From positions 1-54,782 of the IMG/VR virus record IMGVR_UViG_3300027121_000004: 54,782 nt of DNA; one strand, written 5' to 3'. Shown one piece after another: positions 30,764 to 54,782 of the stretch. The notes below the pieces were generated by a model. It saw only the letters and a program-made list of their open reading frames with translations, was not told the DNA's origin and made no database searches. Position 1 is the stretch's first letter. Each line of letters opens with the position of its first letter. The position numbers and the translations under genes are program-made. This DNA is from a virus.

Positions 30764-30767
30764 TAGT

Positions 30768-34408: not shown

Positions 34409-34422
34409 ACCTAGATTTACAT

Positions 34423-35677: not shown

Positions 35678-35743
35678 TCAACAATATATATTTAGTAGTC
35701 TGATTATAAGACGAACCCAATCAAAATATAATAATTACACGAA

Positions 35744-35771
35744 TTGACATGTGATCTAGTTATGATATGAT
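35744..35771 (+). promoter_or_regulatory. sigma70-like promoter for the 35.8-49.3 kb plus-strand run
   Basis: TTGACA (35744-35749), 16-bp spacer, TATGAT (35766-35771), 15 bp before the ATG at 35787. It sits between divergent genes and may drive a very long operon. The predicted leader is about 9 nt. Confidence 0.75.
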
Positions 35772-35786
35772 TGAACACAAACTACT

Positions 35787-36221
35787 ATGAAAGTTATAAC
35801 AATACAACAACCCTTTTATCTAAAGTATGTCGCATCACTAAAGAAGTTGACCAAGAAAATTTCAAGAATCAGCACCGAACAAAAAATTCAAAGAGAACAA
35901 GATCTTTGGTATGGTCTTGAACAAGCAAACGACAAACCATTTAGGTGGTCTCATCCACTCACAAAAGTAAACATACAGAATGTAGACAAGGTGGTTTTTG
36001 TATTCTCCGATCCAATTGGCAGAGAAGTTTCATTTAAGACCAAGGAAGTGGATCATACTTTTAGACTTGAGCCTGGTGAAGAATACAAGGTGATTGTGTC
36101 TACCTACGATGCCACCGAGGTAACTATTCGAATTGATCCATTTAATCCAGATAGTGATACTCGTTCATTGGGAGCACAATATTATTCTATTACCTCAGAA
36201 GATACAGTAATCTTAAACTAA
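35787..36221 (+). CDS. stand-alone beta-sandwich glycan-associated module, 144 aa
   Basis: No named family. The core (residues about 40-135) aligns by eye with the protein at 37646. Shared landmarks are FRWS(H/F)P, then D-VG(R)E in DPIGREVSF / CPVGREIHI, then L-P---Y--I, then IR/TIxxDPfxP and DTRSLG / ETRSLG. A related domain lies inside the 882-aa transferase at 26629. The W-S and D/N-x-R-x-L-G landmarks recall beta-sandwich domains attached to bacterial polysaccharide enzymes. A role in glycan binding or as a transferase partner is inference. It is the first gene after the promoter at 35744. Confidence 0.75.
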   Translation: MKVITIQQPFYLKYVASLKKLTKKISRISTEQKIQREQDLWYGLEQANDKPFRWSHPLTKVNIQNVDKVVFVFSDPIGREVSFKTKEVDHTFRLEPGEEYKVIVSTYDATEVTIRIDPFNPDSDTRSLGAQYYSITSEDTVILN

Positions 36222-36222
36222 G

Positions 36223-37641: not shown

Positions 37642-37645
37642 TGTT

Positions 37646-38071
37646 ATGGATGACGCAATTATAATCAATCAATCATTTTGGAACAGAATCAAGAATATTC
37701 TAGGTGTGAGAGCATTCAATAGTGCTAGCACATTATCATTGAGTGGAACAGACTGGCACGAAGTCGAAAAAGATCTCGACGGAAACAAGTTCAGATGGTC
37801 TTTTCCAAAAACAGTAATTACATACGAGAACATTTCAGCCTTACGAGTGAAACTAGTTTGTCCAGTGGGCAGAGAGATTCATATACACAATGATAGAATC
37901 GACTTTAAACACAAATTGACTCCAAATAAACCATATATATTTATCATCAATACTGTTGGCACTAAAGACTTGACAATTGAGACAGATCCGTATATGCCTG
38001 AGAATGAAACACGTTCACTTGGACTGTGTTTCTCTCAAGTCTGTGAACATCCAAGTTTAGCCTGTCTATAA
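37646..38071 (+). CDS. stand-alone beta-sandwich glycan-associated module, paralogue, 141 aa
   Basis: Second copy of the module described at 35787, clearly diverged but with the same landmarks (FRWSFP, CPVGREIHI, DPYMPENETRSLG). It starts 4 bp after the GT4-like gene stops. Two copies bracketing a transferase suggest a functional unit of enzyme plus carbohydrate-binding partners, or a duplication event around that gene. Function is not established. Confidence 0.75.
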   Translation: MDDAIIINQSFWNRIKNILGVRAFNSASTLSLSGTDWHEVEKDLDGNKFRWSFPKTVITYENISALRVKLVCPVGREIHIHNDRIDFKHKLTPNKPYIFIINTVGTKDLTIETDPYMPENETRSLGLCFSQVCEHPSLACL

Positions 38072-38075
38072 AATA

Positions 38076-39113
38076 ATGAAAAAGTTACTATACCTTTGTT
38101 GCCATTGCGTCCTTGAATACGACGAACTTAGGCTTCTTAATGAGTTGGGATATGATGTATTCACAAACGATGCATATCATCGTCCAAAAAATCCTGTTGT
38201 AAACAGGCGACCACCATTGAACATTGAAGACAAGCCAGACTATCTTCAAAAGTTTTATGATATGTGTCATGTCAATTCACACAATCCAGATGTTAAACCT
38301 GAACAGTATAACAATCTGTTGACTGATGCTATGATTGACTCATTTGATACTATCATGATCATGCACCTTCCTAGGTTCATTGAACAAAACTGGGATCGTA
38401 TCAAACACAAAAACGTTATTTGGAGAACAATTGGCCAATCAACTGCCGACGTTGAAGCCAAGATGCAAAAGTATCGTGCCGAGGGATTGAAGATTGTTCG
38501 TTATAGTCCAAAGGAACGTGAACTTACAAACTACTGTGGTGAAGATGCGATGATTCGATTTGCCAAGTATAAGGATGATTATCTACCATATGTTGGTGAT
38601 CAAAATTATGTGATGACGTTTGGTCAGAACGTTGTTGGTAGAGGAGATCATTGTCGTTATGATTTGATTCGTCATGTTGCTAAGGATTTCAATTTCAAAT
38701 TGTTTGGTCCAGGCAATCAAGCTGCTCCTATGGATTGTGGCGAGTTGGACTACAAAGATCAGTTGGTTGAACTATCAAAGAACAAGGTCTATTTGTATAG
38801 TGGAACTTGGCCAGCATCTTATACACTCAACTTCATGGAAGCGTGGATGAGCGGAATTCCTGTGGTTGCTTTGGGTGATGAACTTGCAAGTAAAGTTGGT
38901 AAGTTCCCATACGAAGTTAGCAGTTTGATCAAACACGGCGAAAACGGATTCTGTTGCAATAACGTTGCTGAAATCAAAGACTGTATTCGTGAAGTAATGA
39001 TGAATGCAAATTGCAGAAAGATGATTAGCGAAAACGGAAGAAAAGCTGCTATCGCATATTTTGATGCAGAATCTATCAAACCTCAATGGAAAGAATTTTT
39101 AGATAAACTATGA
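38076..39113 (+). CDS. GT-B glycosyltransferase, 345 aa
   Basis: The N-terminal half has LYLCCHCVLEYDELRLLNELGYDVF and IMIMHLPRFIEQNW. The C-terminal half has VMTFGQNVVGRGDHCRYDLI, FKLFGPGNQAAP, KNKVYLYSGTWPASYTLNFMEAW-type segment (E-A followed by GIPVVALGDE), and HGENGFCCNNVAEIKDCI. These are normal donor-site and C-terminal features of GT1/GT4-clan enzymes. The exact family is uncertain. It is joined to the next gene by an ATGA overlap. Confidence 0.75.
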   Translation: MKKLLYLCCHCVLEYDELRLLNELGYDVFTNDAYHRPKNPVVNRRPPLNIEDKPDYLQKFYDMCHVNSHNPDVKPEQYNNLLTDAMIDSFDTIMIMHLPRFIEQNWDRIKHKNVIWRTIGQSTADVEAKMQKYRAEGLKIVRYSPKERELTNYCGEDAMIRFAKYKDDYLPYVGDQNYVMTFGQNVVGRGDHCRYDLIRHVAKDFNFKLFGPGNQAAPMDCGELDYKDQLVELSKNKVYLYSGTWPASYTLNFMEAWMSGIPVVALGDELASKVGKFPYEVSSLIKHGENGFCCNNVAEIKDCIREVMMNANCRKMISENGRKAAIAYFDAESIKPQWKEFLDKL

Positions 39114-40267
39114 AAGTATTTTGTGATTTTCACCACAGAGATTTAGTTAATTCAATGTGTCACCTATTCGAAAAAAGAATGGGTGCTGAACTCTACGTTC
39201 CTTACGGAATGGATTATTACAAACAAGGATATTGGCGAATTGTTGACGCAAATATTGATAGTGTAGCGGAACAATTCTTGGTCAACCAGTTTGGCAATGA
39301 TGGTTTACAAGAGTTTACAGACAATGAAGACGGAACCGTCGTTGTAAAATCAAATGATGGAAAACTTCCTTATAAGGGAATGGACTTTGAGACATTCTGT
39401 AAGACCAAGTTTGATATCATTATTGCTACTGTTCCAGCACACATTCCACTTTACATGAAGTTGCTTAAGGATCATCAACCTCAAGCCAAGTTCATTTTTG
39501 AAGCAGGTAACAATTGGGGTAATATTAATACAAATGTTCCTAACTTCTTGAACTCTACAACTTACACGTTTGTTTCGGGTGAAGATATACATGGATTGAC
39601 GATGAATGCTCTTTACAAGAAATTCCAAAAGAAGGACTTGTATAAGGGTATGCACAAGATATTCCAAAATAGACGTAATGGTAAGAAGTGTAACATGGTA
39701 TTTTTCCATCCAGAGTTTGATCTGAATGTGTTTAAGAACAATAACAGTATCAAAAACATAAAGAGTATTAGTAACATTCGTCATAACTGTAATACTCTAG
39801 GTGGTTTGTATGAACTTGAACGTCGTTTGCCAGACTGGACTATCAAGGCATACGGTGTTGGTAACCGTGACGGTGAGTTAAAGACTGACTATGACATTGC
39901 TAGAGTGATGAATGAGTCTGGTTTTGTGTATCACGTTAAACCAGTTGGCGATGGGTATGGATATAATATTCACCAAGCATATGCTGTTGGAAGTATTTTG
40001 ATCACCGACAGTAGTCACATGTCTAGTGGCGGCAATCCAGAAGAATGGTTTACTTCACAACTGTTGTTGGATGTTGAGAACTATGGAACCACACCAACTT
40101 TTGTTGACTGGGGTAAGTATAACTACGATAGTGTGGTCAATAGATTGAAGTGGTGTGCCGATAACTATCCAACAATTCAAGAGAACGCAATGAATAAATT
40201 TAAAGAAGTTGTGGACTTTGATGAAGAATATCAGAAGATCCGAGTATTTATTGAAAGACTAATATGA
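39110..40267 (+). CDS. GT-B-like glycosyltransferase (tandem paralogue 1), 385 aa
   Basis: It begins MKVFCDFHHRDLVNSMCHLFEKR, almost the same layout as the next gene (MKVLADYHHLSLLRSIYILFGQR). The C-terminal half contains NIRHNCNTLGGLYELERRLPDW, AYGVGNRDGEL, and FVYHVKPVGDGYGYNIHQAYAVGSILI. This last resembles the donor-site signature of GT-B enzymes, with G-GYG-N-HQA in place of EGFG--EA. Family assignment is by architecture only. About 55 more residues than its neighbour, mostly N-terminal insertions. Confidence 0.68.
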   Translation: MKVFCDFHHRDLVNSMCHLFEKRMGAELYVPYGMDYYKQGYWRIVDANIDSVAEQFLVNQFGNDGLQEFTDNEDGTVVVKSNDGKLPYKGMDFETFCKTKFDIIIATVPAHIPLYMKLLKDHQPQAKFIFEAGNNWGNINTNVPNFLNSTTYTFVSGEDIHGLTMNALYKKFQKKDLYKGMHKIFQNRRNGKKCNMVFFHPEFDLNVFKNNNSIKNIKSISNIRHNCNTLGGLYELERRLPDWTIKAYGVGNRDGELKTDYDIARVMNESGFVYHVKPVGDGYGYNIHQAYAVGSILITDSSHMSSGGNPEEWFTSQLLLDVENYGTTPTFVDWGKYNYDSVVNRLKWCADNYPTIQENAMNKFKEVVDFDEEYQKIRVFIERLI

Positions 40268-41259
40268 AAGTTTTAGCTGATTATCACCACTTATCCCTAC
40301 TCAGGTCCATCTACATTTTGTTTGGACAACGCCTCAACTATGAGTTAGACATTCCCTGCGGTTGGGATTGGTATTTTGAAGGATCACTATACAGTTCATA
40401 TGCACCCGAAGTTGGATCTTACACAATTCAACCTGAGTTTGACAATGCGTATTTTAAACAATACATGCCAAAGTTGAAAGGTGGTAGTTTTGAAAAGTTC
40501 AAAGACAATGAGTATGACATCGTAGTCTGCACTCTATTGGAGAATTATATTACTTGGAAAGAACTGATCAAACATTACAATTTGAAATGTAAGTTGATTT
40601 TCCAAATTGGTAATAATATTCCTCTTTGGTGTCAACCAACTACATTTGAAAACCTATTGTCTAGTTCTTGGCCATGTTATGTAAATTATAATTGTAAGAA
40701 CAAGGTATTTTACCATCAAGAGTTCGACACAACCAAGTTCACTCAGAAGTTGGATTGCAACAGAAAGTCTATAGCAAATCTACAACACTTTATGCAAATG
40801 CCTGAGTTGTTTTATGGTTTGGAAAAGGCAATGCCTGACTACACATTTAAAGCACACGGTGCGGGTAATCGTGATGGTTATATACCCAACGGTGAAGATG
40901 AAATGTCCAATTTCATAAAGAATCTAGGATTTTTGTTTCACTGTAAGGTGGTTGATGAAGGTTATGGTCACAACGTCCACAATGCGTTTGCATGTGGTAA
41001 GCCTGTAATTGTTGATTCTACCCACATGGGTGTTGATTGGAACGGTTGGATTGGTAATACCGCATCATTGATGTTTGAAGATGGCAAGACGATTATTGAT
41101 GTAAATGGTAAGACCCAAAAAGAAATCGAATTTAAAATCAGAGAAATGACCGAAAATTACGAAGAAGTCAGTAATTATGTTATGAAAAAATTTAAACAAG
41201 TTAGTGACTTTGACTATGAGTTTTTGATGATTAAGTCATTCTTGGCAAACTTAGTATGA
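40264..41259 (+). CDS. GT-B-like glycosyltransferase (tandem paralogue 2), 331 aa
   Basis: Paralogue of the preceding gene. The shared signature set is DYHH near the N-terminus, ELDIPCGWDWY (neighbour ELYVPYGMDYY), AHGAGNRDGY, and VVDEGYGHNVHNAFACGKPVIV. Its start overlaps the neighbour's stop (ATGA), consistent with a tandem duplication inside the operon. Donor and acceptor are unknown; divergence suggests different specificities. Confidence 0.68.
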   Translation: MKVLADYHHLSLLRSIYILFGQRLNYELDIPCGWDWYFEGSLYSSYAPEVGSYTIQPEFDNAYFKQYMPKLKGGSFEKFKDNEYDIVVCTLLENYITWKELIKHYNLKCKLIFQIGNNIPLWCQPTTFENLLSSSWPCYVNYNCKNKVFYHQEFDTTKFTQKLDCNRKSIANLQHFMQMPELFYGLEKAMPDYTFKAHGAGNRDGYIPNGEDEMSNFIKNLGFLFHCKVVDEGYGHNVHNAFACGKPVIVDSTHMGVDWNGWIGNTASLMFEDGKTIIDVNGKTQKEIEFKIREMTENYEEVSNYVMKKFKQVSDFDYEFLMIKSFLANLV

Positions 41260-42461
41260 ACGACGACAAAAAAATATCCTTACTGTTACCTGCAACCGGC
41301 GAACCATTGTTGATGTATTGCTGGATGACTAATTTACAAAAATATAGTCACCACTTTGACAACATCTTTGTGTCCGTGGACTGCATGGGTCGATTGAACA
41401 GAATGGAGTTTATTTTTATTCAGAATTATCTTACTAGACTCTATAGAAAGTTTCCAAATCTACGAGACAATGCAGAATATTTGGTGGCACAACACGGTCT
41501 CAATATTGATTTGTTGTTGAACAAGTATGAACCTGATATCAGAGACAACGTGCTTTTGATGGAAGAAGATGACTTTATTATCAATCCACAATTTGTCACA
41601 GAACATATCAATGACTATTTTAATAATGGATATGATGTGTTGGGTGTTGGTAGAGGATCGGCAACACCATATTTGTTGGACTCATTGTTTCCGTTGGTAA
41701 AACGTAGACCAAATCTTCAAATAGATACAACACTGTCTTCAAATGATACTGCTATAAGTTTTTGGCCTACATTCTTTTTGACTCGAAAGAATTTGCTTAC
41801 CAAGTCATCAAGAGAGTTTCATTCAAAGACTTGGCCATCTGGATCTGTAATCAAAATTGGTGATGAACAATTGGTTTTGGACAGAGAATGTAGTGGAGAT
41901 ACATTTGTGAGTTACGCTTATGAATTGTATGGAAATCCAGACGTAAAGAAAGTTAGATTGTTGTCTAATACTCCACAAGAAGTGTGGGTTCCAGAACATG
42001 CTTATCCCGTAGGACATTATTACAGAACATATCATTCTAGTCTACATGATAATGAACTATTGGATATGGTAATACCAACATCCATGGATTTCCATGTTGG
42101 TTCACTATCCACATTCATTTCAAACAAGTTCTGGAAACCTTTCAAAGGAACATACGAAGAACATTCATACATGAAAGCAATGTATGCACAGAAAGCCAAT
42201 GAGAATAACAATTGCAATAATCTAGCAATTGTTGAACCATACCGTAGGTGTTTGCTAATGCGAGAGATGTTGAATTCGATCAAGACTCCAAAAGACTTTG
42301 AGTTTTATGACATTTACCAAGAGAATTTAAATCGAACAATTAATACGTATGAAACCGAAAATGATATGGTTTCAATATTAAAGGCATATGGTATTAATGG
42401 TTTACATGATGGAAAGATTGATGTTGATAAATACAAGACAATCAGTAAGATGATACTATGA
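41256..42461 (+). CDS. GT-A-like putative glycosyltransferase, 401 aa
   Basis: N-terminal ISLLLPATGEPLLMYCWMTNL, then FVSVDCMGRL and LLMEEDDFIINPQFV. The EEDD sits where GT-A enzymes carry the metal-binding DxD. LGVGRGSATPYLLD and ISFWPTFFLTRKNLL follow, and a VWVPEHAYPVGHYYRTYH segment looks like the acceptor side. A looser version of the same pattern occurs in the next gene (SMEPDFIGDW, LWPCFWGCKKSLL), so these two may be distant relatives. No named family. Confidence 0.6.
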   Translation: MNDDKKISLLLPATGEPLLMYCWMTNLQKYSHHFDNIFVSVDCMGRLNRMEFIFIQNYLTRLYRKFPNLRDNAEYLVAQHGLNIDLLLNKYEPDIRDNVLLMEEDDFIINPQFVTEHINDYFNNGYDVLGVGRGSATPYLLDSLFPLVKRRPNLQIDTTLSSNDTAISFWPTFFLTRKNLLTKSSREFHSKTWPSGSVIKIGDEQLVLDRECSGDTFVSYAYELYGNPDVKKVRLLSNTPQEVWVPEHAYPVGHYYRTYHSSLHDNELLDMVIPTSMDFHVGSLSTFISNKFWKPFKGTYEEHSYMKAMYAQKANENNNCNNLAIVEPYRRCLLMREMLNSIKTPKDFEFYDIYQENLNRTINTYETENDMVSILKAYGINGLHDGKIDVDKYKTISKMIL

Positions 42462-43339
42462 ACAAAGTAGACTTGTTTGTTATAGCAGCTCCTAACTTTG
42501 ATAGTCCTATTATAAGAGACTTTATACACAAGTATCATAACAGGTTCAATAAAGTATTTTACATATTTTCTTACTCACAAGTCTTTAATGAAAAGTGGAG
42601 ACCATACACCACATTTGTTGAAAATGATCTGAAAGACAAGTGTGAGGTGATTTATTGTAGAATGTCAGGAGCATTGGATACTGATTGGCGAGATGAATGT
42701 GTTCAAGAAGTTTTAAAGCGTTCAACCGGCGATTATATTTTCTCAATGGAACCCGATTTTATTGGCGATTGGGATAAAATAGTTGACCTCATTCTAAACA
42801 AGAATTATTCTTTGTTTTCCATGTTGGACTCAAACCTCAGTGGACTCAGATTGTGGCCTTGTTTTTGGGGATGTAAGAAATCGTTATTATCTCAAATAAA
42901 GTATCCAAAGTTTGGAGCACCCGTTGATGCGAGAGTAAAGGAATTGTTTGGGGTCGATTACAACAAGAAGTTGCGATTCAATGTAGATGGATTGCAACAT
43001 GTAGATTCAAAAGACAGAGTAAAGTTCTACAAAGAAAACAAAATTATCACCGAGGAAGTTCCATTTCCACATTTTTATGACCACTTTGATTTGGTGTCTG
43101 CACAGTTGATGGATATTATTCAAGATGATGGTGAACAGTTGTTGTTACTCAATAGAATGGATGATGTGTGGTATTATCACATTGCGGGTATAACTCACGA
43201 TTTCCATACTATGTATGAACACAATAGGATTGCCAGAGATACTATGGCATACCGTATGTTTTATGACTACTGTATGAAAACGAATGTTAATATGTTTCCA
43301 GATTGGTTGGAAGTGTCTAGTAGAATTATAAACTCATGA
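42458..43339 (+). CDS. GT-A-like putative glycosyltransferase, 293 aa
   Basis: The Rossmann-like start VDLFVIAAPNFDSPIIRDF is followed by VFYIFSYSQVFN and TGDYIFSMEPDFIGDW, where E-P-D takes the DxD position. LRLWPCFWGCKKSLLSQI and FPHFYDHFDLVSAQLM complete the conserved-looking core. A WYYHIAGITHDFHTMYEHN segment may bind the acceptor. No family is recognised with confidence. ATGA overlaps link it to both neighbours. Confidence 0.58.
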   Translation: MNKVDLFVIAAPNFDSPIIRDFIHKYHNRFNKVFYIFSYSQVFNEKWRPYTTFVENDLKDKCEVIYCRMSGALDTDWRDECVQEVLKRSTGDYIFSMEPDFIGDWDKIVDLILNKNYSLFSMLDSNLSGLRLWPCFWGCKKSLLSQIKYPKFGAPVDARVKELFGVDYNKKLRFNVDGLQHVDSKDRVKFYKENKIITEEVPFPHFYDHFDLVSAQLMDIIQDDGEQLLLLNRMDDVWYYHIAGITHDFHTMYEHNRIARDTMAYRMFYDYCMKTNVNMFPDWLEVSSRIINS

Positions 43340-44340
43340 ATTACTTAATAATTCCATTTATAAGATACTCACAAGTTGATACCAAGCTTGGATCGATGTT
43401 ACATGATTACATTCTGTCTAATTTGTCAAAGTTTCCAGTGGATAATTTTGTGTTTATTGGAACATACATGGATTGGGAAAATACAGTGGTCAATGTAAAT
43501 GGTAAAACTATCACATACATACCAACTCTTCAATGTCACCAAGAAAATTTGCAAATTGCAATCAATAGGTTAAACGACGATGATAAATTTGTAGTCATGG
43601 ATAGTGATTTGGTGATATACGATTATGACATCTTCAATCGTATGTTCAAATATTTGGATGATCATGATATTGTGTCTAACTTGGATGGTGGATGCACAAT
43701 AACTCCAACTTACTTTCACATTTGGCAAAAAGGACATTTTCCAGAAGATCCTCATCGTAATTTCATGTATACGTCACCTATATTTGCACCAAACGAATAT
43801 CGTGGTGGAAGAGGACGTTTTGCAGCAACATTGTTTGGTTGCACAAAAAAGTTTTGGATGAAACATTGTGGCACAGTTGAAGAATATTGTTCACACGAAT
43901 CGATGGAAATATTTTCTAGGAATGTTTTGAAGTATACTCCAGATGTGAAGTTCAAAGAATTGTTGGACTATAGGTGTAATGTATGGATTCCACCTGAACA
44001 CCAAAAAATTCAAATATACAGAAATTCAGATGATGAAAGATGTGATGAAAACGTCACAAAAATAGGCGAATACTACCATATCAGAAATTTTGGTGAAACT
44101 GTAAAGATGATAGATTATATCATCGACAATCGTGTGTATGTTCATCATAATAAACCCGAATCACAACGATTGTTGGCGTGGTTTACAATTGTTTTGGAAA
44201 AATTAATTCAAATTGATTCAAGTTATTCTGTCTATACTACTTATATAGACAGAATTCGGAATGACACGGAAATTTCCAAAGAACTGTTTGATGAATATCT
44301 GACCAAATTTAAAGAATTTCACAGATCTAATTTGTTATGA
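43336..44340 (+). CDS. GT-A-like putative glycosyltransferase, 334 aa
   Basis: It has LIIPFIRYSQVDTKLG at the N-terminus, then FVVMDSDLVIYDYDIF with a clear DSD motif. DIVSNLDGGCTITP, GGRGRFAATLFGCTKKFW, and a long helical C-terminus follow. It resembles small GT-A transferases that keep DxD as metal site; the family is unassigned. Start and stop overlap both neighbours by ATGA. Confidence 0.6.
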   Translation: MNYLIIPFIRYSQVDTKLGSMLHDYILSNLSKFPVDNFVFIGTYMDWENTVVNVNGKTITYIPTLQCHQENLQIAINRLNDDDKFVVMDSDLVIYDYDIFNRMFKYLDDHDIVSNLDGGCTITPTYFHIWQKGHFPEDPHRNFMYTSPIFAPNEYRGGRGRFAATLFGCTKKFWMKHCGTVEEYCSHESMEIFSRNVLKYTPDVKFKELLDYRCNVWIPPEHQKIQIYRNSDDERCDENVTKIGEYYHIRNFGETVKMIDYIIDNRVYVHHNKPESQRLLAWFTIVLEKLIQIDSSYSVYTTYIDRIRNDTEISKELFDEYLTKFKEFHRSNLL

Positions 44341-45467
44341 GCGAAGATGTAAAACAAAAAACAAGAGCAGTAGGTGTAACATCAATTGGTAATCCCATCA
44401 CTCTGATTGCCACATTAGAAAAATTTAAGAGGATATGTAGAGGTTACAGAGTTTATGTGATGTTAAATATTGCTAGAGAATGCAACAATCGTGAGAACAT
44501 AACTCACCTCACTGAACAAACATACAAGATATGTCAACACTATGAAAAGTATTTCTCACAGTTATTGATCATTGAAAACACTGCTAATTCTTGGATGTCA
44601 CATGGTCTTTGTTTGGATACACTATTTACATTGACCACCGAAGATGAAATGGCATTCTTCGAAGAGGATGCGTATTTGACTGATAAAGTAACATTTGATA
44701 ATTGGTTCAATCAACTCAAAGACAATCATTTAAATTGTGTTGTTGCTCCTCAGAACCCTAATAACTTTGGTCAGTTATTTAGTAAACTTGGTATATTCCA
44801 TGGCGCAGTCAACATGCCTGGTAAGGAAAGTATATTCTTTGTTAGACGAGATATATTGGAGTTGTATGATTGGCCTGCATTTGATTACGTGAAATGGGAA
44901 AATCAATTTGTGTATAAGCCGAACGAGTGTTTAGAGTTGAAGTTCAATGAAGAAATACACTTTGATACGTTTGAGTTTTTCTCACTCAATTGTTGGATGA
45001 ACAAAAATATCAAAAAGAGTGTTTATGAAGAACACAACTTTGATTATTGGGTTTCTGAAGGTAGAGGAAATATTGATGAGTTTTTCAGAAAGCATGCTTC
45101 TCCACCACCATACATTCATTACTTCAATGGAGCATTGTTTCAATACTTGGATTACCACGATAAGGGAAATAAAAAGTTTTACTATGATATGGTGCATGAC
45201 GCTCCCCACTTCGGTCAATTCATGTATCATATGTCTACGTTCTTGATTCATTATTCGATATTGTTGACCATCAAAAAACGTTATATTCAACTATGTGGTA
45301 TTGAAGAATACAAACGTCATAAGAAGTCACTTAGAAATGCTATAGTGTTATTGTTCAATTATTTTGGATACTACACTATCAAGAAAAAGTTCAAGATGCA
45401 CTTGTATTTCAAATTTGCATGTAGACACTCAAGAAAAGTTCATTATTTGAGTGAGGAGGTAGTATAA
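44337..45467 (+). CDS. putative glycosyltransferase (paralogue of 46654), 376 aa
   Basis: Shared with the gene at 46654: RA(V/I)G(V/L)T(S/T)xGNPITLIA, then FFEEDAYLTDK / IFEEDAFVFDK (E-E-D as candidate DxD), PGKESIFFV / PAKESILFI, and FDTFEFFSL. YIHYFNGALFQYLDY and a basic C-terminus (KRHKKSLRNAIVLLFNY) follow. The first 200 residues look like a GT-A fold and the rest is helical. No named family; activity is inferred from the acidic motif and context. Confidence 0.6.
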   Translation: MSEDVKQKTRAVGVTSIGNPITLIATLEKFKRICRGYRVYVMLNIARECNNRENITHLTEQTYKICQHYEKYFSQLLIIENTANSWMSHGLCLDTLFTLTTEDEMAFFEEDAYLTDKVTFDNWFNQLKDNHLNCVVAPQNPNNFGQLFSKLGIFHGAVNMPGKESIFFVRRDILELYDWPAFDYVKWENQFVYKPNECLELKFNEEIHFDTFEFFSLNCWMNKNIKKSVYEEHNFDYWVSEGRGNIDEFFRKHASPPPYIHYFNGALFQYLDYHDKGNKKFYYDMVHDAPHFGQFMYHMSTFLIHYSILLTIKKRYIQLCGIEEYKRHKKSLRNAIVLLFNYFGYYTIKKKFKMHLYFKFACRHSRKVHYLSEEVV

Positions 45468-45483
45468 AAATCTATATATTTTT

Positions 45484-46176
45484 ATGGAAGCAAGTTATAT
45501 TTTGAATCTAATTTTTGACTATAAAGAATATGCTGTAAGTGCTAGTGCGTCTGCGTTTGCAGCAATGTTTTTTACGTTTATCAAATCACTCAAATCATCG
45601 TATCAGAAACACAACTACTGGGTCAAATTCTATCAACTGGTAATCAATAAAAAACCAGATTTGATTGTTGAAATGGGAATTTTGGAAGGTTACTCATTGT
45701 TTAGTTTTGCAAGAGGATGTGTTGAAAATAGAAAAGGTAAGATTATCGCTATTGATCTATTCGAAGACTATCCGTATAATCATGCTAGATACGATGATAT
45801 CAAGTCGAAATTGGAAAAGTGGGGCATGGACAAGTGTGTGTATCTCCACAAAGGTGACGCACTAAATTTAGATCTAAATTTTGATGACAAGTCAATTGAT
45901 CTTCTTCACATCGACATTTCAAACACAGGTGACAAAATCGAAAAGTTGTTGTTGGACTATCATTCCAAGATGAAAGACGATGGTATCATTTTGTTTGAAG
46001 GCGGAAGCAAGTCCAGAGACAATATTCCATGGATGATTGACTATAATTGTGTTCCTATTGCTCCAATTCTTGAAAAAGAAGAAATGACTCGACTTTATGA
46101 TTTCTTTGTGATAGAAAATTACCCATCACTAACAATTTGTTATAAAAAAAATGAACAGCCCAAGATTATTCTTTGA
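45484..46176 (+). CDS. class I SAM-dependent methyltransferase, 230 aa
   Basis: The N-terminal 45 residues have a hydrophobic stretch (AVSASASAFAAMFFTFI) that may be a membrane or packing helix. The Rossmann core shows LIVEMGILEGYSLFSFA (motif I), GKIIAIDLFED (motif II acidic), CVYLHKGDAL, and DLLHIDISNTGDKIEK. This is a Methyltransf_24-like arrangement. It probably methylates a sugar of the glycan. It overlaps the next gene by 26 bp and separates the two paralogues at 44337 and 46654. Confidence 0.72.
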   Translation: MEASYILNLIFDYKEYAVSASASAFAAMFFTFIKSLKSSYQKHNYWVKFYQLVINKKPDLIVEMGILEGYSLFSFARGCVENRKGKIIAIDLFEDYPYNHARYDDIKSKLEKWGMDKCVYLHKGDALNLDLNFDDKSIDLLHIDISNTGDKIEKLLLDYHSKMKDDGIILFEGGSKSRDNIPWMIDYNCVPIAPILEKEEMTRLYDFFVIENYPSLTICYKKNEQPKIIL

Positions 46177-46657
46177 TATATACAAGACATACGCAAACTA
46201 CAAAGATGTAGCAGACCTCGTAGTTTTGGAAATAAATGACACTGGAAAGTTGTCTTCACAGATGTGGAAACAATTGTTTACCAAAATTCATGTGGAGAAC
46301 GACTTATCTAAAGTTGGATCATATGAATTTGATATATGCTTTTTGAACATCACCGATTGGTCAAAATCAGAACGAATACTCTATAGTCTCAACTACAGTC
46401 CTAGACCAAGAGGTCACCATGAAATTATTGTTGCCAACAAAGCTGAGTTTTGGCCATATTTTCTTCCATCTCCAAAAGATGGAATTTGTCCAGAAGGTAT
46501 TTGTCAACGTGCAAAGTTATGGGGCGGAGAACAAGATACTAGACAGTTTAGTGTGAGAGGTGACATGGGATTGTTTCCATACAAAATAAAGAAGCCAGAT
46601 CAAACTGTTGTTGCTGAATCCAAAGAGAATGAAGCGACAGTGTTGTGGTATTCATGA
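46151..46657 (+). CDS. hypothetical protein, 168 aa
   Basis: No family is recognised. LVVLEINDTGKLSSQMWKQL and EFDICFLNITDW suggest an alpha/beta fold. A second half has HHEIIVANKAEFWPYFLPSP and CPEGICQRAKLWGG with two cysteines. It is packed between a methyltransferase (26-bp overlap) and a glycosyltransferase (ATGA overlap), which argues that it is expressed as part of the glycan operon. Confidence 0.62.
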   Translation: MNSPRLFFDIYKTYANYKDVADLVVLEINDTGKLSSQMWKQLFTKIHVENDLSKVGSYEFDICFLNITDWSKSERILYSLNYSPRPRGHHEIIVANKAEFWPYFLPSPKDGICPEGICQRAKLWGGEQDTRQFSVRGDMGLFPYKIKKPDQTVVAESKENEATVLWYS

Positions 46658-47796
46658 ACCAAATTGATGTTAGTGATACCAGAGCTATAGGATTGACCAC
46701 ACTTGGTAATCCTATAACATTGATAGCATCATTGGACAGACTCAGTAAGTTATGTCCTCAATACAAGCTATACATCTGTTTAAATCCCCAAAGAGAGTAT
46801 GTATCAGACGAACAGTTTGATTACATTGTAAATTCGTCATACAAGATCATACAGTCGTATCAACATCTATTCAAAGAAGTTGTAGTAATTGAGGCACATT
46901 ACAAAGCTTGGTGGGGAACCAAGTTGTGGGCAACACATGGGTTTTGTATTGATGCGTTGTTAGAGCTTTCAAATGAACAACAAATAGCTATATTTGAAGA
47001 AGATGCTTTCGTATTTGACAAAGGATTGTTTGACACATGGTTTGACAAGTTAAATACAGTTCATGTTTTTTGTGGTATGAATAGTATCACGCCAAATAAC
47101 TGTGATGTATTTGATAAAGTAAGATTGTTTTCCTCAACTCCAGATGTTCCTGGTCCTGCAAAAGAAAGCATTTTATTTATCAACAAATCAATCAAACAAC
47201 ATTGGGATTGGATTTCAACCGATTACTTTAAACTTGAAAATAACATATTGTTCACACCACCATTTGATAGTCCAAAACTAAATTTCAGACGAGAAGTTAA
47301 TTTTGATACATTTGAGTTTTTCTCGTTGATGTGTTACCTCAACAAAGATATAAAAATGGAATTTTACGAAGAAAATTCCTACAACTATTGGTGGTATCAA
47401 GGTTTGAACAATCAGTCTGAGTTTTATGTGAAACATGGAAACTTTGATCAATACATTCACTATTTTAACAGTGCTTTGTTCCAACAGTTAGAGTTCAACG
47501 ATAAGTCGAATGCAAAAATATACAAAGATAGATTACTAGCATCAAAAGATTGGAGTCCATTTGTTCATCATCTCTCCACATACATTCTAGGGTTATCTTT
47601 ACTACATTATTATAAAAAAGCATATGTGGATTTATTGGGAAATGAACAATATATAAAACACAAAAGATCGTTAAAAAACTATGTATACTTGTTAATTCAA
47701 TACTATGGTTATGGTCGTATCAATCTTGAGTTTAACATATACAAACTTATAAGGTTCACATATCGATATATTAGAAAACACCATGGGTGTAAATGA
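46654..47796 (+). CDS. putative glycosyltransferase (paralogue of 44337), 380 aa
   Basis: Same architecture as 44337: GLTTLGNPITLIASLDRL, FEEDAFVFDK, KESILFINKS, NFDTFEFFSLMCYLNKD, YIHYFNSALFQQLEF, then a basic helical tail (KHKRSLKNYVYLLIQYYGYG). The ATG at 46654 is used because it overlaps the upstream stop as ATGA; an upstream ATG at 46645 would overlap further. The two copies are well diverged, so they likely differ in substrate rather than being redundant. Confidence 0.6.
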   Translation: MNQIDVSDTRAIGLTTLGNPITLIASLDRLSKLCPQYKLYICLNPQREYVSDEQFDYIVNSSYKIIQSYQHLFKEVVVIEAHYKAWWGTKLWATHGFCIDALLELSNEQQIAIFEEDAFVFDKGLFDTWFDKLNTVHVFCGMNSITPNNCDVFDKVRLFSSTPDVPGPAKESILFINKSIKQHWDWISTDYFKLENNILFTPPFDSPKLNFRREVNFDTFEFFSLMCYLNKDIKMEFYEENSYNYWWYQGLNNQSEFYVKHGNFDQYIHYFNSALFQQLEFNDKSNAKIYKDRLLASKDWSPFVHHLSTYILGLSLLHYYKKAYVDLLGNEQYIKHKRSLKNYVYLLIQYYGYGRINLEFNIYKLIRFTYRYIRKHHGCK

Positions 47797-48692
47797 ATAT
47801 GAGTCCAATTTTTCAATTTGAAGAACTTGATGTCGAACTACTAAAGCAGTTTGACGGAACCAACAATTATTTCAACTGTTCACATTTGAACGGTAAAACT
47901 ATATTTCGTAAGGAACACAAAATAAGCAGAGACTTTCATGCTTGTGATATTATTGATCAAGACGGTGCGATCATACTACAAAATTATGCGGACGAAGAGT
48001 ATCACTATAGTTTTGAAGATGCACGGTGGATCGATGATAAAAATATTGGTGTATGTGTTGCCAAGTTTGATATTGAGGATCTTGCCAAACTTGAAGGTGT
48101 TCATTTTAAGAGATACAATCTGGAAACCAAGAAACTCTATCACTACATAACCCGTAGAGCACATTTTGAAAAACACTGGCAGTTCTATAACAACTACATA
48201 ATCTATCATGTTAATCCATATACAATAATGGATTCATCTGAACAAGAAGTGTTTGTTAAAAAAATCAACTGGAAACCATGGATTGAGAAGTATGGTAACC
48301 CAGGGTTAAGCACCAACGTATTTGATGTTCACGGTGAAAAGTTCTTGTTGTATCATAGTTATGTTTACTTTGGACCAGCAATAATGAGATACTTTATTGG
48401 GGTGATGAAAGTGAAGAATGACATTACTCCAGTAGGATACTGTCTAAATCCACTATTGGTATCAGACAGAAACTATTCAAGTTCATACGTATTGAATCGT
48501 TTGTGGTCATGGAGAAACACAACTCATAGAAATGCTATCAAGTATGAAGTGATCTTTCCAATGAATGTTGTGACCGATGACAAGTCGATTCATATTTATG
48601 GTGGATTAAATGATTGTTCTGCTGTAAAGATGAGTATCGACAAATTGACGTTTGTTGAAAGAATTAAGAATCAACCATTCATAATTCACTGA
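47793..48692 (+). CDS. GH130-like beta-propeller glycosidase/phosphorylase-type protein, 299 aa
   Basis: It has the repeat rhythm of a five-bladed propeller: YHYSFEDARWIDDKNIGVCV near residue 74 (GH130-type E-D-R), EKHWQFYNNYIIYHVNPYTIM (family EKN--P-------Y---P), NPGLSTNVFDVHGEKFLLYHS, then VIFPMNVVTDDKSIHIYGGLND and a last strand. GH130 enzymes cleave or phosphorolyse beta-mannosides. Similar propellers of unknown activity occur in glycan clusters. The assignment is by pattern, and catalytic residues beyond the E-D region were not mapped. Confidence 0.5.
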   Translation: MNMSPIFQFEELDVELLKQFDGTNNYFNCSHLNGKTIFRKEHKISRDFHACDIIDQDGAIILQNYADEEYHYSFEDARWIDDKNIGVCVAKFDIEDLAKLEGVHFKRYNLETKKLYHYITRRAHFEKHWQFYNNYIIYHVNPYTIMDSSEQEVFVKKINWKPWIEKYGNPGLSTNVFDVHGEKFLLYHSYVYFGPAIMRYFIGVMKVKNDITPVGYCLNPLLVSDRNYSSSYVLNRLWSWRNTTHRNAIKYEVIFPMNVVTDDKSIHIYGGLNDCSAVKMSIDKLTFVERIKNQPFIIH

Positions 48693-48693
48693 A

Positions 48694-49272
48694 ATGCGGA
48701 CTTTGGTAATAACCAGATTTGATGAAAACTTGAGTTGGTTGGAAAAAGTCAAGGATGATGTAGTTATTTACAACAAAGGGTTTCCGTTGTTGCCGTATGA
48801 GTTTAAAACACTGCCAAACGTCGGTCGAGAGGCAGACAGTATGTTGTATCACATCGTCAACAACTATCATAATTTGAGTGACGAAATTGTTTTTCTTCAA
48901 GGAGACCCGTTTGATCATTGTTGGGATGTATTGAAATTAATTGATGAAAAACGTAATGTTGATGACGTTGTTTGGTTGGGTAGCAATTGGGGTCCAGTAA
49001 CAAAAAATTATGATGGTGGACCAGGCCATGGATGTTTTCTACCCATGATCAAAATATCAAAGCTTTTGTTTGAGAACTGCACGTTTGATAAAACCACTAC
49101 ATTCACGTTTTCCGCCGGAGCACAATACATCGTTCCAAAACACAAGATTCTCTCAAAGAGTTTGGATTGGTGGAAACATTCGTATGATGTGTTTACAAAC
49201 AATCTGCCAACAACTCCATGGGTATATGAAAGACTTTGGCCGTTGATTTGGAATTATTCGACAAACCATTGA
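48694..49272 (+). CDS. DUF3431 protein, putative glycosyltransferase, 192 aa
   Basis: Strong motif match to DUF3431: VITRFDENLSWLEKV, VIYNKGFPL, then LPNVGREADSMLYHIVNNY followed by LSDEIVFLQGDPFDH. The family is common in fungi and other eukaryotes, with scattered bacterial members, and is believed to be GT-A-related. The C-terminal part includes TFSAGAQYIVPKHKIL, a typical GT-A tail segment. It ends the long plus-strand run and overlaps the convergent gene by 19 bp. Confidence 0.8.
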   Translation: MRTLVITRFDENLSWLEKVKDDVVIYNKGFPLLPYEFKTLPNVGREADSMLYHIVNNYHNLSDEIVFLQGDPFDHCWDVLKLIDEKRNVDDVVWLGSNWGPVTKNYDGGPGHGCFLPMIKISKLLFENCTFDKTTTFTFSAGAQYIVPKHKILSKSLDWWKHSYDVFTNNLPTTPWVYERLWPLIWNYSTNH

Positions 49273-50138: not shown

Positions 50139-50891
50139 ATGAGTATGAATGATGTTACCATAGTTGCTCCAGTTTATTTAGGAAAACCACATCGTCTTGA
50201 ATATTTTCAAACATACATAAATTATTGTTTGTCACAACGTGATTTTGATAAAATGAATTTTGTGTTTTTGGTTGAGCCAGATGTAATGAATTTTGATCTA
50301 CTCACAAAGTTGAGATTGTATCCAAACATACGCATAATGGTTAATCCATACAAATATGGACTGTTGTTGAACCAATACATGACACTCTACTACAGTTTTG
50401 AGATACTAAACTTGGAACATGTGATTTACACCGAGGATGATTGTGTGATGTCCAATGACATGTATGACATTACAAAGTTCTATGTCAACTCACAGTATTA
50501 TGATAACAACACTATTTTGACTTATTTGAACAAAGACAACTTGGTTGATCCTCCACAGAACGATGACGGTAAAGATGTCTTAGAGGTAAAAAACAACTTT
50601 CATCCAGTTAGAACAGGCATGGTTTACTTTGCTACATGGGGATATCTTTGCACCAGAAGAATGTGGTTTGATTGTATGAAAAAATGGCCACATCAATGGT
50701 GTTTCTCTGAACATCTGCTTCCTCATTATTTGGACAAAATCAAAACTGTGACCCCAAAACTTTCTAGGTTGAATCACATTGGTGTGTTGGGAGCATCATA
50801 CAACGAAGAAATTTACAAGAGTCATGAATTTACAAACTACATGCCTCCTACTTTCTCAGATAGACTAGAATATAAATTCCATGAAATATGA
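50139..50891 (+). CDS. GT-A putative glycosyltransferase, 250 aa
   Basis: VTIVAPVYLGKPHRLEYFQTY is a GT2-like opening. MVNPYKYGLLLNQYMTL and VIYTEDDCVMSNDMYD follow, the EDD-type metal motif seen in GT13-like and related enzymes. RTGMVYFATWGYLCTRRMWF resembles the acceptor-side strand. It could start at 50139 or at the in-frame ATG at 50145. Its end overlaps glf by 11 bp, so the two are likely co-expressed and may act in the same galactofuranose step. Confidence 0.68.
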   Translation: MSMNDVTIVAPVYLGKPHRLEYFQTYINYCLSQRDFDKMNFVFLVEPDVMNFDLLTKLRLYPNIRIMVNPYKYGLLLNQYMTLYYSFEILNLEHVIYTEDDCVMSNDMYDITKFYVNSQYYDNNTILTYLNKDNLVDPPQNDDGKDVLEVKNNFHPVRTGMVYFATWGYLCTRRMWFDCMKKWPHQWCFSEHLLPHYLDKIKTVTPKLSRLNHIGVLGASYNEEIYKSHEFTNYMPPTFSDRLEYKFHEI

Positions 50892-51975
50892 TTATTTGAT
50901 TGTTGGCAGTGGTTTGTTTGGTGCCACGTTTGCCAATCTCGCAAAAGAAGCTGGTAAATCGTGCTTGATCTTGGAAAAGAGACCACACGTTGCTGGTAAT
51001 TGTTACACCGACAGAATTCAGAACATCAACGTTCATGTGTATGGTCCGCACATATTTCATACATCAAATAAAGAAATATGGGATTATGTCAATAAGTTTG
51101 CAACGTTCAACAACTTTGTCAACAGACCAAAGGTGAAATACAAGAATAATATCTATTCGTTTCCAATTAATATGTTTACTCTTTACCAACTGTGGGGATG
51201 TCAAACACCAAGTGAGGCAAAAAGTAAACTAGAATCTGTGCGAGTTAAAATTGAGAACCCACAGAACTTGGAAGAATGGATTTTGAGTCAAGTGGGTGAA
51301 GACTTGTATCATACGTTTATAAAAGGATACACCACAAAACAGTGGGGTAGAGATCCAAAAGAATTACCATCTTTTATCATCAAACGTCTGCCAATCAGAT
51401 TGACGTATGACGATAACTATTACAACGACACATATCAAGGTATTCCGATTGGAGGATATACTCAGATGATAAAAAACATGATGAAAGACATACCAATTGA
51501 AACTGGTGTGGACTTTCTAAAAGACCTTGAGTATTGGTCTAGTAAAGCAAACAAAGTGGTATACACTGGTGCGTTAGATGAACTGTTTGGTTATAACAAG
51601 GGTGAGTTGGAATACAGAAGTCTCAGATTCGACATATCTGAAGTATTTGAGTCTGACTATCAAGGTAATGCCATAATGAACTATACTGAACAAAGTGTTC
51701 CATACACCCGTATAGTAGAACATAAACACTTTGAACAAACACAATCAAAGACCACTATAATCACGCGTGAGTATCCTCAGACATGGAATAGATCGTTGGA
51801 AAAATATTACCCAATCAATGACGAAAAAAACCACAGTCTATACACACATTATAAGAATGAATGTGCAGAACATTTTCCAAATATGATACTGGGTGGTCGA
51901 TTGGCATGTTATCAGTATTTTGATATGCATCAGGCAATCGGACAAGCTATGCACCGATTTACAAACGTCGGTTGA
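50881..51975 (+). CDS. glf: UDP-galactopyranose mutase, 364 aa
   Basis: FAD enzyme that converts UDP-galactopyranose to UDP-galactofuranose. The FAD loop is IVGSGLFGATFA, followed by LEKRPHVAGNCYT and NVHVYGPHIFHT, the active-site region with the family H-YG-HiFHT. FSFPIN, FIKGYTTKQWG and RLPIRLTYDDNYYND follow, all near-invariant in Glf. The C-terminal GGRLACYQYFDMHQAI is the conserved R-YkY-dM motif. Length is normal (360-390) and no key residue is missing. It implies galactofuranose in the glycan, unless the product is diverted. Confidence 0.96.
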   Translation: MKYDYLIVGSGLFGATFANLAKEAGKSCLILEKRPHVAGNCYTDRIQNINVHVYGPHIFHTSNKEIWDYVNKFATFNNFVNRPKVKYKNNIYSFPINMFTLYQLWGCQTPSEAKSKLESVRVKIENPQNLEEWILSQVGEDLYHTFIKGYTTKQWGRDPKELPSFIIKRLPIRLTYDDNYYNDTYQGIPIGGYTQMIKNMMKDIPIETGVDFLKDLEYWSSKANKVVYTGALDELFGYNKGELEYRSLRFDISEVFESDYQGNAIMNYTEQSVPYTRIVEHKHFEQTQSKTTIITREYPQTWNRSLEKYYPINDEKNHSLYTHYKNECAEHFPNMILGGRLACYQYFDMHQAIGQAMHRFTNVG

Positions 51976-52678
51976 TTACACTATCAATATGATACATGTA
52001 TTCTAGCTTTGTTTGTTTTTTGACCGCACAGTTTGCGTGATATAACACCACATCTTTTATTTCATTGTGTATGTGATGTAATCCAATTGATGTTGAAAAG
52101 AATTCGGGTGGAAACAAATCCCATTTCAAATCATAATCGTTTGGAGAATATAAGGTTTTGTTGATCAAACTTTGTTCCAATAAACCTGTATCCACGATCA
52201 TCTTTAATATGTCTGAAAAGAATCTGTGGGTTTTATCACACGATTTTATCACGTTAAAACCAATATTGATGTTTCCCAATTGCATGTCATAGTTTCCATC
52301 AAGTGTTTTGTCGTAATATTCTTTCAACCGTTGTTTTTCTTGGTCGTCAAAAAACTCTCTTAGAAATATTACATCTTGATCTTTGATCACTTGATTGATT
52401 GCGGATAGTAGTGGTCTATACACAACTACGTCTACATCTGAAAACACGAAATAATCACCTTCTTTGGTTTGATTTATACCATTAATCATGCCAGACAATT
52501 TTGATTGCCAAGTATTGAATCCGCCACCAAACTTACAATGTTCTGGACATTCTTCATCAAACTGAGGAGTATCAATTGGTATTTCAATCAGATTGAAGTT
52601 TTCTTTGTCTTTTATACTATTGATGAAGTTTTGTTTTAGATCCTCAAATAGTGGATCTGACATGTAGTATAAATTCAT
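51959..52678 (-). CDS. PF03407-like nucleotide-diphospho-sugar transferase (tandem paralogue A), 239 aa
   Basis: GT-A enzyme with D81-V-D83 in FVFSDVDVVVYRP. IFLREFFDD, NINIGFNVIKSCDKTHRFF and a C-terminal YHANCAV follow. The order D-V-D, then n-GF-v-k-c--t--F, then yHAn fits nucleotide-diphospho-sugar transferases of the GT77/PF03407 kind. It is a tandem copy of the next gene, joined by a 4-bp overlap. It runs head-on into glf with a 17-bp overlap. Confidence 0.72.
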   Translation of the reverse strand: MNLYYMSDPLFEDLKQNFINSIKDKENFNLIEIPIDTPQFDEECPEHCKFGGGFNTWQSKLSGMINGINQTKEGDYFVFSDVDVVVYRPLLSAINQVIKDQDVIFLREFFDDQEKQRLKEYYDKTLDGNYDMQLGNINIGFNVIKSCDKTHRFFSDILKMIVDTGLLEQSLINKTLYSPNDYDLKWDLFPPEFFSTSIGLHHIHNEIKDVVLYHANCAVKKQTKLEYMYHIDSVINRRL

Positions 52679-53382
52679 CCCATCACCTTTTGTTTAAACA
52701 AGTTCAACAGTTCAATCTTTTTGTTCACCTCAATCACACATGTTGCGTGATATGCGACAGTATCTTTGTTGATCATATTGTATGTCTCATATGCCGTTGT
52801 TGTAAATGTAAGAGGTAAAGTTCCCCAATTAAGATCATAGTCTGGATTTGAGAACAATATTCTGTTGACGCACGTTTGATCCATAAGACCGTCAGGCCAC
52901 AAAGCATGATCATGTGAGTCTACGAAATTCTTTGTGTTCTCAATCATGTGTAACACATCTTGAAAGAATCTTTTGGATTTGTCACAAGCCTTGACCACAC
53001 AAAAACCAAAGTTACAATGACCTGCTACATCACCACCTTGTTGTGGTAATGATCCGTGTGGTATTTCTCGTATGAACATCACATCTCTATTGTCAAGAAC
53101 TTCATTCAATATGGGTATGATTGGTTTGAAAAATACTACATCGACATCTGAATATACAAAGTATTCGTTTGGTTCACATATGTCTATGGTTTCCAACAAG
53201 AACTTTACTTTGTCTTTCCAAACTTGAATACCACCACCAAACAATCTGTGTTGATAAAAGTCGGTTTCAAACTTTGGAGTCTCCAACTTCTTTTCAATCA
53301 ATTCAAAAGTATCTTTTAGATTGTCAAGAAAATGAGTTCTCAATGGCAAAAAACCATCATCATACATGTAACACAACTTCAT
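52675..53382 (-). CDS. PF03407-like nucleotide-diphospho-sugar transferase (tandem paralogue B), 235 aa
   Basis: Same architecture as 51959: D79-V-D81 in FVYSDVDVVFFKP, MFIREIPHG, NFGFCVVKACDKSKRFF, then AYHATCVIE. Shared segments such as LFGGGIQVWKDK (paralogue FGGGFNTWQSK) show tandem duplication. DQTCVNRILFSNPDYDL is the conserved D-Q---N segment. Acceptor and donor are unknown. Linked by 4-bp overlaps to the neighbours on both sides. Confidence 0.72.
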   Translation of the reverse strand: MKLCYMYDDGFLPLRTHFLDNLKDTFELIEKKLETPKFETDFYQHRLFGGGIQVWKDKVKFLLETIDICEPNEYFVYSDVDVVFFKPIIPILNEVLDNRDVMFIREIPHGSLPQQGGDVAGHCNFGFCVVKACDKSKRFFQDVLHMIENTKNFVDSHDHALWPDGLMDQTCVNRILFSNPDYDLNWGTLPLTFTTTAYETYNMINKDTVAYHATCVIEVNKKIELLNLFKQKVMG

Positions 53383-54317
53383 ATGTTCTTGAAAAAGTCT
53401 ATCAATCGATTGGAGTTCTTCAACATAATATCACGGAACATATCTCGACGTTCTTGTTCTCTACCAATTGGTTCGAAGTTTTCAAGAACATTAGTAAGTT
53501 TCTCTTCATCAAGAAAGAATGCTTTACGCAGAGGAAACGAGCCTGGAAGATTATCTTTACAGTAATGATAGTCTAAATCTATCTTTTCAACAGTGGGGAT
53601 TATTCTTACAAGTGATGGGTCCAAATGTTCTGAAAACGATGGTATGTCACTACAGATGATTTCGGCGCCGGTTGACAATCCTTCATACAAATAATGTCCC
53701 CAACTTTCGTATAGACTTGGGCATATGTGAACAGAGTGACGGTTCAACATCTTTTTGATATCACGTTTAATCATGTATTGTGTGATATATTCCACGTTTG
53801 CAGGCGCAACAAATCGTTTTGTGGTATCTACAACGGTAATTGGAACCTTTTGACGCATTATTGCTTCGGTATTCTTTTGAATTGCTCTACCATTGAAATG
53901 AAGAAACTTTTGTTCTTTGGCAATTGTTGGATCGTAAAAATCGTATGACAATAGTGGCAAACATATTACGTCTGGTCTGATTGGTTCCAACAACTTTCGA
54001 GCATATTCAGTCTTCACAACGATATAGTCAAATTGATCTACTTTCTTTAGATCATCAACACCAGCCCACTCTTCATTAACAAACCAAATGTTCTTTTTGA
54101 AATTTTGAAGATAATCATATCTTGGGTTTTGAATCCAGATACCCACATCACCGGTTTCATCTGCAACATAGTTTGGAACAGCCCAGTTTTTACCCAAGTG
54201 TTCAATGAAAAGAATATCGGCATTTTCTGTTACATTTTTTTGAATCAAGTTTTGTAACAACATCGCATCAATCACGATGCCTGCTCTATTATTATATGTA
54301 AGAAGTTTGACTTTCAT
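53379..54317 (-). CDS. GT4-like glycosyltransferase, 312 aa
   Basis: N-terminal half: LLTYNNRAGIVIDAMLLQNLI and DIWIQNP-like VGIWIQNPRYDYLQNF, then KTEYARKLL. Donor half: KFLHFNGRAIQKNTEAIM and HSVHICPSLYESWGHYLYEGLSTGAEIIC-type signature (E with Y-EGLS in the place of EA), then SDIPSFSEHL. It is short for a GT4 but contains both halves. It is the first gene of a minus-strand trio that diverges from the GT6 gene at 54388. Confidence 0.78.
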   Translation of the reverse strand: MKVKLLTYNNRAGIVIDAMLLQNLIQKNVTENADILFIEHLGKNWAVPNYVADETGDVGIWIQNPRYDYLQNFKKNIWFVNEEWAGVDDLKKVDQFDYIVVKTEYARKLLEPIRPDVICLPLLSYDFYDPTIAKEQKFLHFNGRAIQKNTEAIMRQKVPITVVDTTKRFVAPANVEYITQYMIKRDIKKMLNRHSVHICPSLYESWGHYLYEGLSTGAEIICSDIPSFSEHLDPSLVRIIPTVEKIDLDYHYCKDNLPGSFPLRKAFFLDEEKLTNVLENFEPIGREQERRDMFRDIMLKNSNRLIDFFKNI

Positions 54318-54387
54318 GTTATTGTGAAATACCAGTATATATGTATCAATAAGTCGGCAATCAAAAATTGATAATCAAAATTATAAT

Positions 54388-54782
54388 ATGAAAATTGCTA
54401 TATGCACAATTTCCACTGATGCTTATTGGGATAAATACCCAGCATTGCGTAAATCAATAGATACACATTTTTTAACAAAATACTCTGTTCACAATTTTGT
54501 ATACACTGATGCTTTATCGTCGCACAGTGAGGTGTTTCATACATCACATTTACCATCTCCATTGATAACATTAATGAAGTTTAATCTACTGGTTCAAAAA
54601 CAACACATACTTAGAAATTTTGATTTGTTATACTTTATCGATGGCGATTGTATTGTTGTTGATGATATAGACGAGGAAGTATTTCCAACCACTGATGCTC
54701 CAATTGTAGCAACAAAACATCCATGGCAATCATACAATAGTGAACAGTATGATACCAACCCATCATCGACGGCGTATGTGTT
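54388..54782 (+). CDS. GT6 (ABO blood-group type) glycosyltransferase, N-terminal part (runs off window)
   Basis: Partial: 131 codons, open at the right edge. The sequence shows NFVYTDAL, then PSPLITLMKFNLLVQ (family P---L-RF), then LLYFIDGDCIVV with the DxD motif D85-G-D87, IDEEVFPT, then IVATKHPWQ followed by DTNPSSTAYV (family lvg--HP-----yerrP-S-AYip). These are hallmarks of GT6, the family of histo-blood-group A/B and alpha-1,3-Gal transferases, with known bacterial members and, as I recall, one in a cyanophage. It keeps an acidic DxD. Catalytic C-terminal residues are outside the window. Confidence 0.78.
   Translation, partial: MKIAICTISTDAYWDKYPALRKSIDTHFLTKYSVHNFVYTDALSSHSEVFHTSHLPSPLITLMKFNLLVQKQHILRNFDLLYFIDGDCIVVDDIDEEVFPTTDAPIVATKHPWQSYNSEQYDTNPSSTAYV

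Follow-up and report, generated by a model that had tools for sequence, protein, structure and literature searches.

Evidence for the N-terminal half of a GT6 (ABO-type) glycosyltransferase at the edge of a glycan gene region in a T4-like phage

Introduction

The virus record IMGVR_UViG_3300027121_000004 ends inside an open reading frame that a sequence-only reading had assigned to glycosyltransferase family 6 (GT6, ABO-type), a family best known for vertebrate blood-group enzymes. Does half a gene belong to this family and, if so, what might the enzyme do for a phage? The window analysed here is the entire record, exactly 54,782 b in length. We consider it likely that this is the gene for a retaining alpha-glycosyltransferase of GT6 from a T4-like phage, with the activity and role predicted below.

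Results and Discussion

A truncated GT6 gene at the end of the record

The reading frame (54388-54780, plus strand) opens with an ATG at 54388 and continues without a stop through 131 complete codons, until the window itself ends. Record and window have the same length, so it is the record, rather than how the window was chosen, that truncates the gene. Searches for the missing 3' part were unsuccessful: an exact 31-base pattern taken from the end of the available gene sequence had no match among viral contigs, a peptide-pattern scan with the fragment returned no close relative, and the 64.5-kb record of a sister contig (IMGVR_UViG_3300021962_006154, described below) contains no GT6 gene. The equivalents of ABO residues 266, 268, 300, 303 and 346 (human ABO-numbered alignment) lie beyond the record end; the catalytic Glu, a Trp, the donor-selecting residues and the C-terminal Lys are all in the missing half. 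The features of the region are collected in Table 1.

Table 1. Features of the GT6 fragment and of the adjoining glycan region (window coordinates)
Feature	Coordinates	Strand	Basis or remarks
5' part of GT6 glycosyltransferase gene	54388..54782	+	Open frame, profiles, tblastn, phmmer, Foldseek
K64	54577..54579	+	Aligned with R188 of ABO transferase
DGD, residues 85-87, predicted divalent-metal/UDP site	54640..54648	+	Human ABO transferase D211-V-D213 and BoGT6a N95-A-N97 align here
H111-P112	54718..54723	+	Aligned with H233-P234 of ABO transferase
Last conserved intergenic stretch, TATATATGTATCAATA, with the exchange point at its end	54336..54351	.	Sister-contig alignment
GT4-like glycosyltransferase, divergent neighbour of GT6 (Glycos_transf_1, E 9e-6)	53379..54317	-	83% identical in sister contig
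Two Nucleotid_trans (PF03407) glycosyltransferase genes (52675-53382 and 51959-52678)	51959..53382	-	Pfam
UDP-galactopyranose mutase, nucleotide-sugar enzyme (GLF, E 1.8e-74)	50881..51975	+	
Rest of glycan region, GT6 side: GT4-like, GT61, GT90, DUF3431, DUF6492, NTP transferase, methyltransferase and radical SAM/SPASM genes, many ORFs without Pfam match	26629..49272	.	

The four landmarks on which the sequence-only reading had relied (P-L--L-KF, DGD, HP and P-S-AYV) are all present in the translated frame, as P58-L..T61-L62-M-K64-F65, D85-G86-D87, H111-P112 and P125-S-S127-T-A129-Y-V. Profile searches matched the fragment to phrog_3317 ('glycosyltransferase', E 8.7e-20) and to positions 1-141 of the 226 in NCBIfam NF041524 (Gltr_6, 'family 6 glucosyltransferase', E 7.1e-16). 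By tblastn, 14 phage records matched over most of the fragment, led by P-SSM2 and P-SSM5 (33% identity, 7e-10), and phmmer against the PDB returned GT6 entries only, with BoGT6a at 3.4e-6 and the ABO transferases at 0.4-0.5. Given the E values of the tblastn, of both profiles and of BoGT6a, the landmarks are not a product of chance. AlphaFold2 modelling of the fragment (29 sequences; pLDDT 82.5, last 30 residues poor) points to the GT6 variant of the GT-A fold, for the N-terminal half only: the best 50 Foldseek matches listed were all GT6, with BoGT6a first (8.8e-7, TM 0.70 by query length), followed, among the matches listed, by ABO and alpha-1,3-galactosyltransferase.

The protein could still come from another GT-A family, such as GT8 or the Nucleotid_trans family to which its neighbours belong, with no more than a resemblance to GT6. 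The Pfam score of the fragment speaks for this, since PF03414 (GT6) reached 12.3 bits (E 0.073), below the curated cut-off of 25. Yet PF03414 was the sole Pfam match of the fragment, and it matched 22 of the 22 aligned phage relatives (E <=0.1, and 3.8e-50 at best, with full-length relatives), which have no second Pfam family common to all. Because these 22 members, the PDB sequence matches and the PDB fold matches listed all point to GT6, we rejected the other GT-A families; that reading is largely refuted and extremely improbable. A profile search for a higher-scoring GT-A family, the check set beforehand, found none that outscores GT6 on the fragment, and GT6 also came first in the pairwise and fold searches, in agreement with the family proposed from the sequence. 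The frame is thereby confirmed, by homology and predicted fold, as the N-terminal half of a GT6 glycosyltransferase and the last gene on the record.

The predicted metal site and the distribution of DxD

Within the fragment, every position that is invariant among the relatives is kept (T10, Y13, H54, P58, D79, D85, D87 and H111), including the two Asp residues of the DGD, which are invariant in alignment A3. In human ABO numbering, S127 and A129 are S252 and A254, and Q120 stands at T245. Among 44 phage sequences clustered at 75% identity, 40 have R in the K64 column and 4 have K. The residues that the record end removes are well conserved in these relatives: Trp, Glu (ABO E303 position; W-H-D-E) and the C-terminal Lys (ABO K346) were each found in 44 of 44. 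The residues at ABO 266 and 268 differ widely from one phage member to another (A, Q, C or I at the first, G, C or A at the second).

The background statement that most bacterial members carry NxN in place of DxD proved right, both in the literature (PMC3961637) and in 78 of the 80 bacterial loci that we fetched, a sample ranked by BoGT6a likeness. The DxD noted here is real (D85-G86-D87) but is no oddity, because DxD is the rule in phages. It was found in 168/169 virus sequences fetched (160/160 IMG/VR loci and 8/9 phage-record loci) and in all 44 clustered sequences, fractions that, like the bacterial one, are not frequencies because the samples are biased: a D[AVG]D pattern defined one of the two virus scans, and the virus set includes some contigs that were retrieved twice. 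DxD is clearly the common case among predicted phage GT6 proteins. The contrast with the mostly NxN bacteria suggests that phages did not acquire their GT6 genes recently by copying the common bacterial type, and it makes metal dependence easy to test in the phage enzymes. Vertebrate GT6 enzymes bind the metal through the Asp pair, metal-independent bacterial enzymes have NxN instead, and a bacterial GT6 with DxD, from Parachlamydia, was metal-dependent when tested (PMC3961637). As DxD goes with metal dependence in the tested GT6 enzymes, it is fair to infer that the enzyme of this phage would also be metal-dependent.

Some sequences depart from the general pattern. The only virus-labelled exception (L010:1495-2322) is a NAN GT6 beside an ABC-transporter ATPase on an unverified human-faecal contig labelled 'Bacteriophage sp.'; the contig may be bacterial DNA. 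In the phylum of a Melainabacteria locus (L216), GT6 occurred in 11 of 386 genomes, whose 12 loci comprised 10 of the NxN type, 1 NGT and 1 DAD. The DAD locus (L256), in a 2.3-Mb genome, may represent a bacterial GT6 with DxD or a gene that came from a phage.

Relationship to known phage members

A phage member was indeed already known: two cyanophages with GT6 were mentioned in the literature in 2014 (PMC3961637), and PSSM2_268 of P-SSM2 is annotated as GT6. With the P-SSM2 protein as query, we retrieved at least 71 phage records, mostly of Synechococcus phages and dozens of them annotated 'glycosyltransferase family 6'. At least 297 are present in IMG/VR. Two uncultured phages of ~635-642 kb (LR745206.1 and LR756502.1) also have GT6 genes, whose identity to the P-SSM2 gene is 42-45%. 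The literature used here reports no GT6 enzyme activity from a phage.

The fragment stands well apart from these relatives. Its best identity to any fetched sequence, over the N-terminal half, is 41%, and the sequences nearest to it by identity are from phages (0.41 to 0.34-0.35). In a FastTree phylogeny it sits on a branch of 1.49 at a node with support of 0.11. The full-length tree without the fragment, rooted on ABO, placed the bacterial sequences in one clade (0.82) nested among phage lineages; the root is weak because ABO is a single outgroup sequence. The predicted protein is thus a new, rather divergent member of a family already known in many marine cyanobacterial viruses, and it extends a family best known for vertebrate blood-group enzymes by a divergent sequence from a T4-like phage lineage.

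A glycan gene region with an exchange point at its edge

The phage is T4-like as judged from two predicted replication proteins, a family B DNA polymerase (phrog_262, 4.6e-175), whose best database match is that of Microcystis phage Mel-JY01 (43%), and a clamp loader. Save for a replication block at ~20-26 kb, genes of glycan type extend from ~10.9 kb to the window end, interspersed with many ORFs without Pfam match; they include UDPG/GDP-mannose dehydrogenase, GT2, GT4-like, GT61, GT90, Nucleotid_trans, UDP-galactopyranose mutase, methyltransferase and NTP transferase genes. Several loci merit mention. At 10321-11791 (-), the match of the dehydrogenase ORF (272 aa) is limited to the central domain and part of the N-terminal one; two small ORFs follow (10599-10976 and 10321-10602), and the gene is possibly split or frame-shifted. 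A dUTPase gene (17457-18032, minus strand, E 2.3e-33) lies among glycosyltransferase genes, and a radical SAM/SPASM protein (29702-30763, plus strand) adjoins GT90-type and DUF6492 genes. Four long consecutive ORFs (293-401 aa) at 41256-45467 (+) are all without a Pfam match; the stretch 44960-45188 matches the sister contig a second time, more weakly, which suggests related copies nearby.

The GT4-like neighbour of GT6, used as query, returned a single relative, the sister contig, which is collinear with window positions 54351-34429 at 75-81% DNA identity. Homology breaks off sharply at 54351/54352, in the divergent intergenic region and 36 bp before the GT6 start. In place of GT6 the sister carries a 222-residue ORF (L265:14357-15025, minus strand) whose FFDIDC motif resembles a DxD; after this ORF come a small one and a methyltransferase gene. 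Neither Pfam nor PHROG matched the 222-residue ORF, which resembles GT6 in this motif only; from motif and place, it could encode a glycosyltransferase. As homology ends just before the GT6 start and an unrelated ORF follows in the sister, the GT6 gene lies at an exchange point. A repeated promoter in the conserved 16-mer was unsupported (2 matches in the window versus 1.98 expected). The region end next to 54351 could be an interchange slot: related phages would retain ~20 kb of glycan genes with little change and swap only the gene adding the outermost sugar. We hold this to be rather unlikely; if true, a swap would switch the exposed sugar and hence the surface type.

Proposed function and alternatives

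The direct support for the preferred function consists of homology to GT6 along the full length of the fragment, a modelled GT-A N-terminal subdomain, the conserved DxD, the His-Pro and S-x-A-Y motifs and the glycan-gene setting. A GT6 enzyme of this kind would bind a UDP-sugar, probably of Gal or GalNAc type, through a divalent metal that D85 and D87 hold in place, and transfer the sugar with retention of configuration. The acceptor would be an outer position of the glycan made by the neighbouring genes, so that the enzyme would act late. Its outermost place is suggested only by the edge position of the conserved block and the exchange in the sister, and gene order need not follow sugar order. 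The outcome could be a changed surface polysaccharide of the infected host, for example against competing phages, or a changed sugar coat of the virion. P-SSM2 has 24 genes of this kind in two clusters; read as LPS genes, they may change the surface of the infected host (PMC2984593).

Weighing on the other side are the missing half of the protein, the weak PF03414 match, the long branch with its low support, and the substitutions Q120 for ABO T245 and K64 for ABO R188. A rival reading is a GT6-fold enzyme that uses another donor, such as a glucose-type sugar. The variability of the donor-choice positions (ABO 266 and 268) among phage members and the subfamily name 'glucosyltransferase' in NCBIfam, a name alone, lean this way, but the characterised GT6 enzymes named in PMC3961637 use UDP-Gal or UDP-GalNAc; we give such a donor perhaps one chance in a few. 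A decaying or non-functional remnant is considerably less probable. The branch length and unsupported placement speak for it, and the gene is dispensable in that the sister contig has something else in its slot, yet all 131 codons are open and the invariant residues are intact. We favour a functional GT6 transferase, probably with a Gal- or GalNAc-type donor.

Comparison with known systems

The closest known counterpart is PSSM2_268 of the Prochlorococcus phage P-SSM2, also a T4-like phage, whose GT6 has DxD (DVD) and the same landmarks, matches the whole fragment and likewise lies in a glycan gene cluster, next to epimerase and glycosyltransferase genes. The two differ in sequence (33% identity) and in neighbouring genes. 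The Synechococcus phages ACG-2014f, S-CAM9, Bellamy, DSL-LC02/03 and SynMITS9220M01 also carry phage GT6 genes, several annotated 'glycosyltransferase family 6', with DAD in all five tallied for the motif; these are 27-35% identical to the fragment where matched and, unlike it, adjoin fucosyltransferase (family 11) or epimerase genes. Among solved structures, BoGT6a of Bacteroides ovatus (PDB 4AYJ, 4CJ8, 4CJB) is the best match in sequence and fold, but it has NAN instead of DxD and is metal-independent (PMC3961637). The human ABO (GTA/GTB) transferases share the GT6 fold, a DxD (DVD in ABO), His-Pro and S-x-A-Y with the phage protein, although identity in the N-terminal half is only ~21% and theirs is a membrane-anchored vertebrate enzyme.
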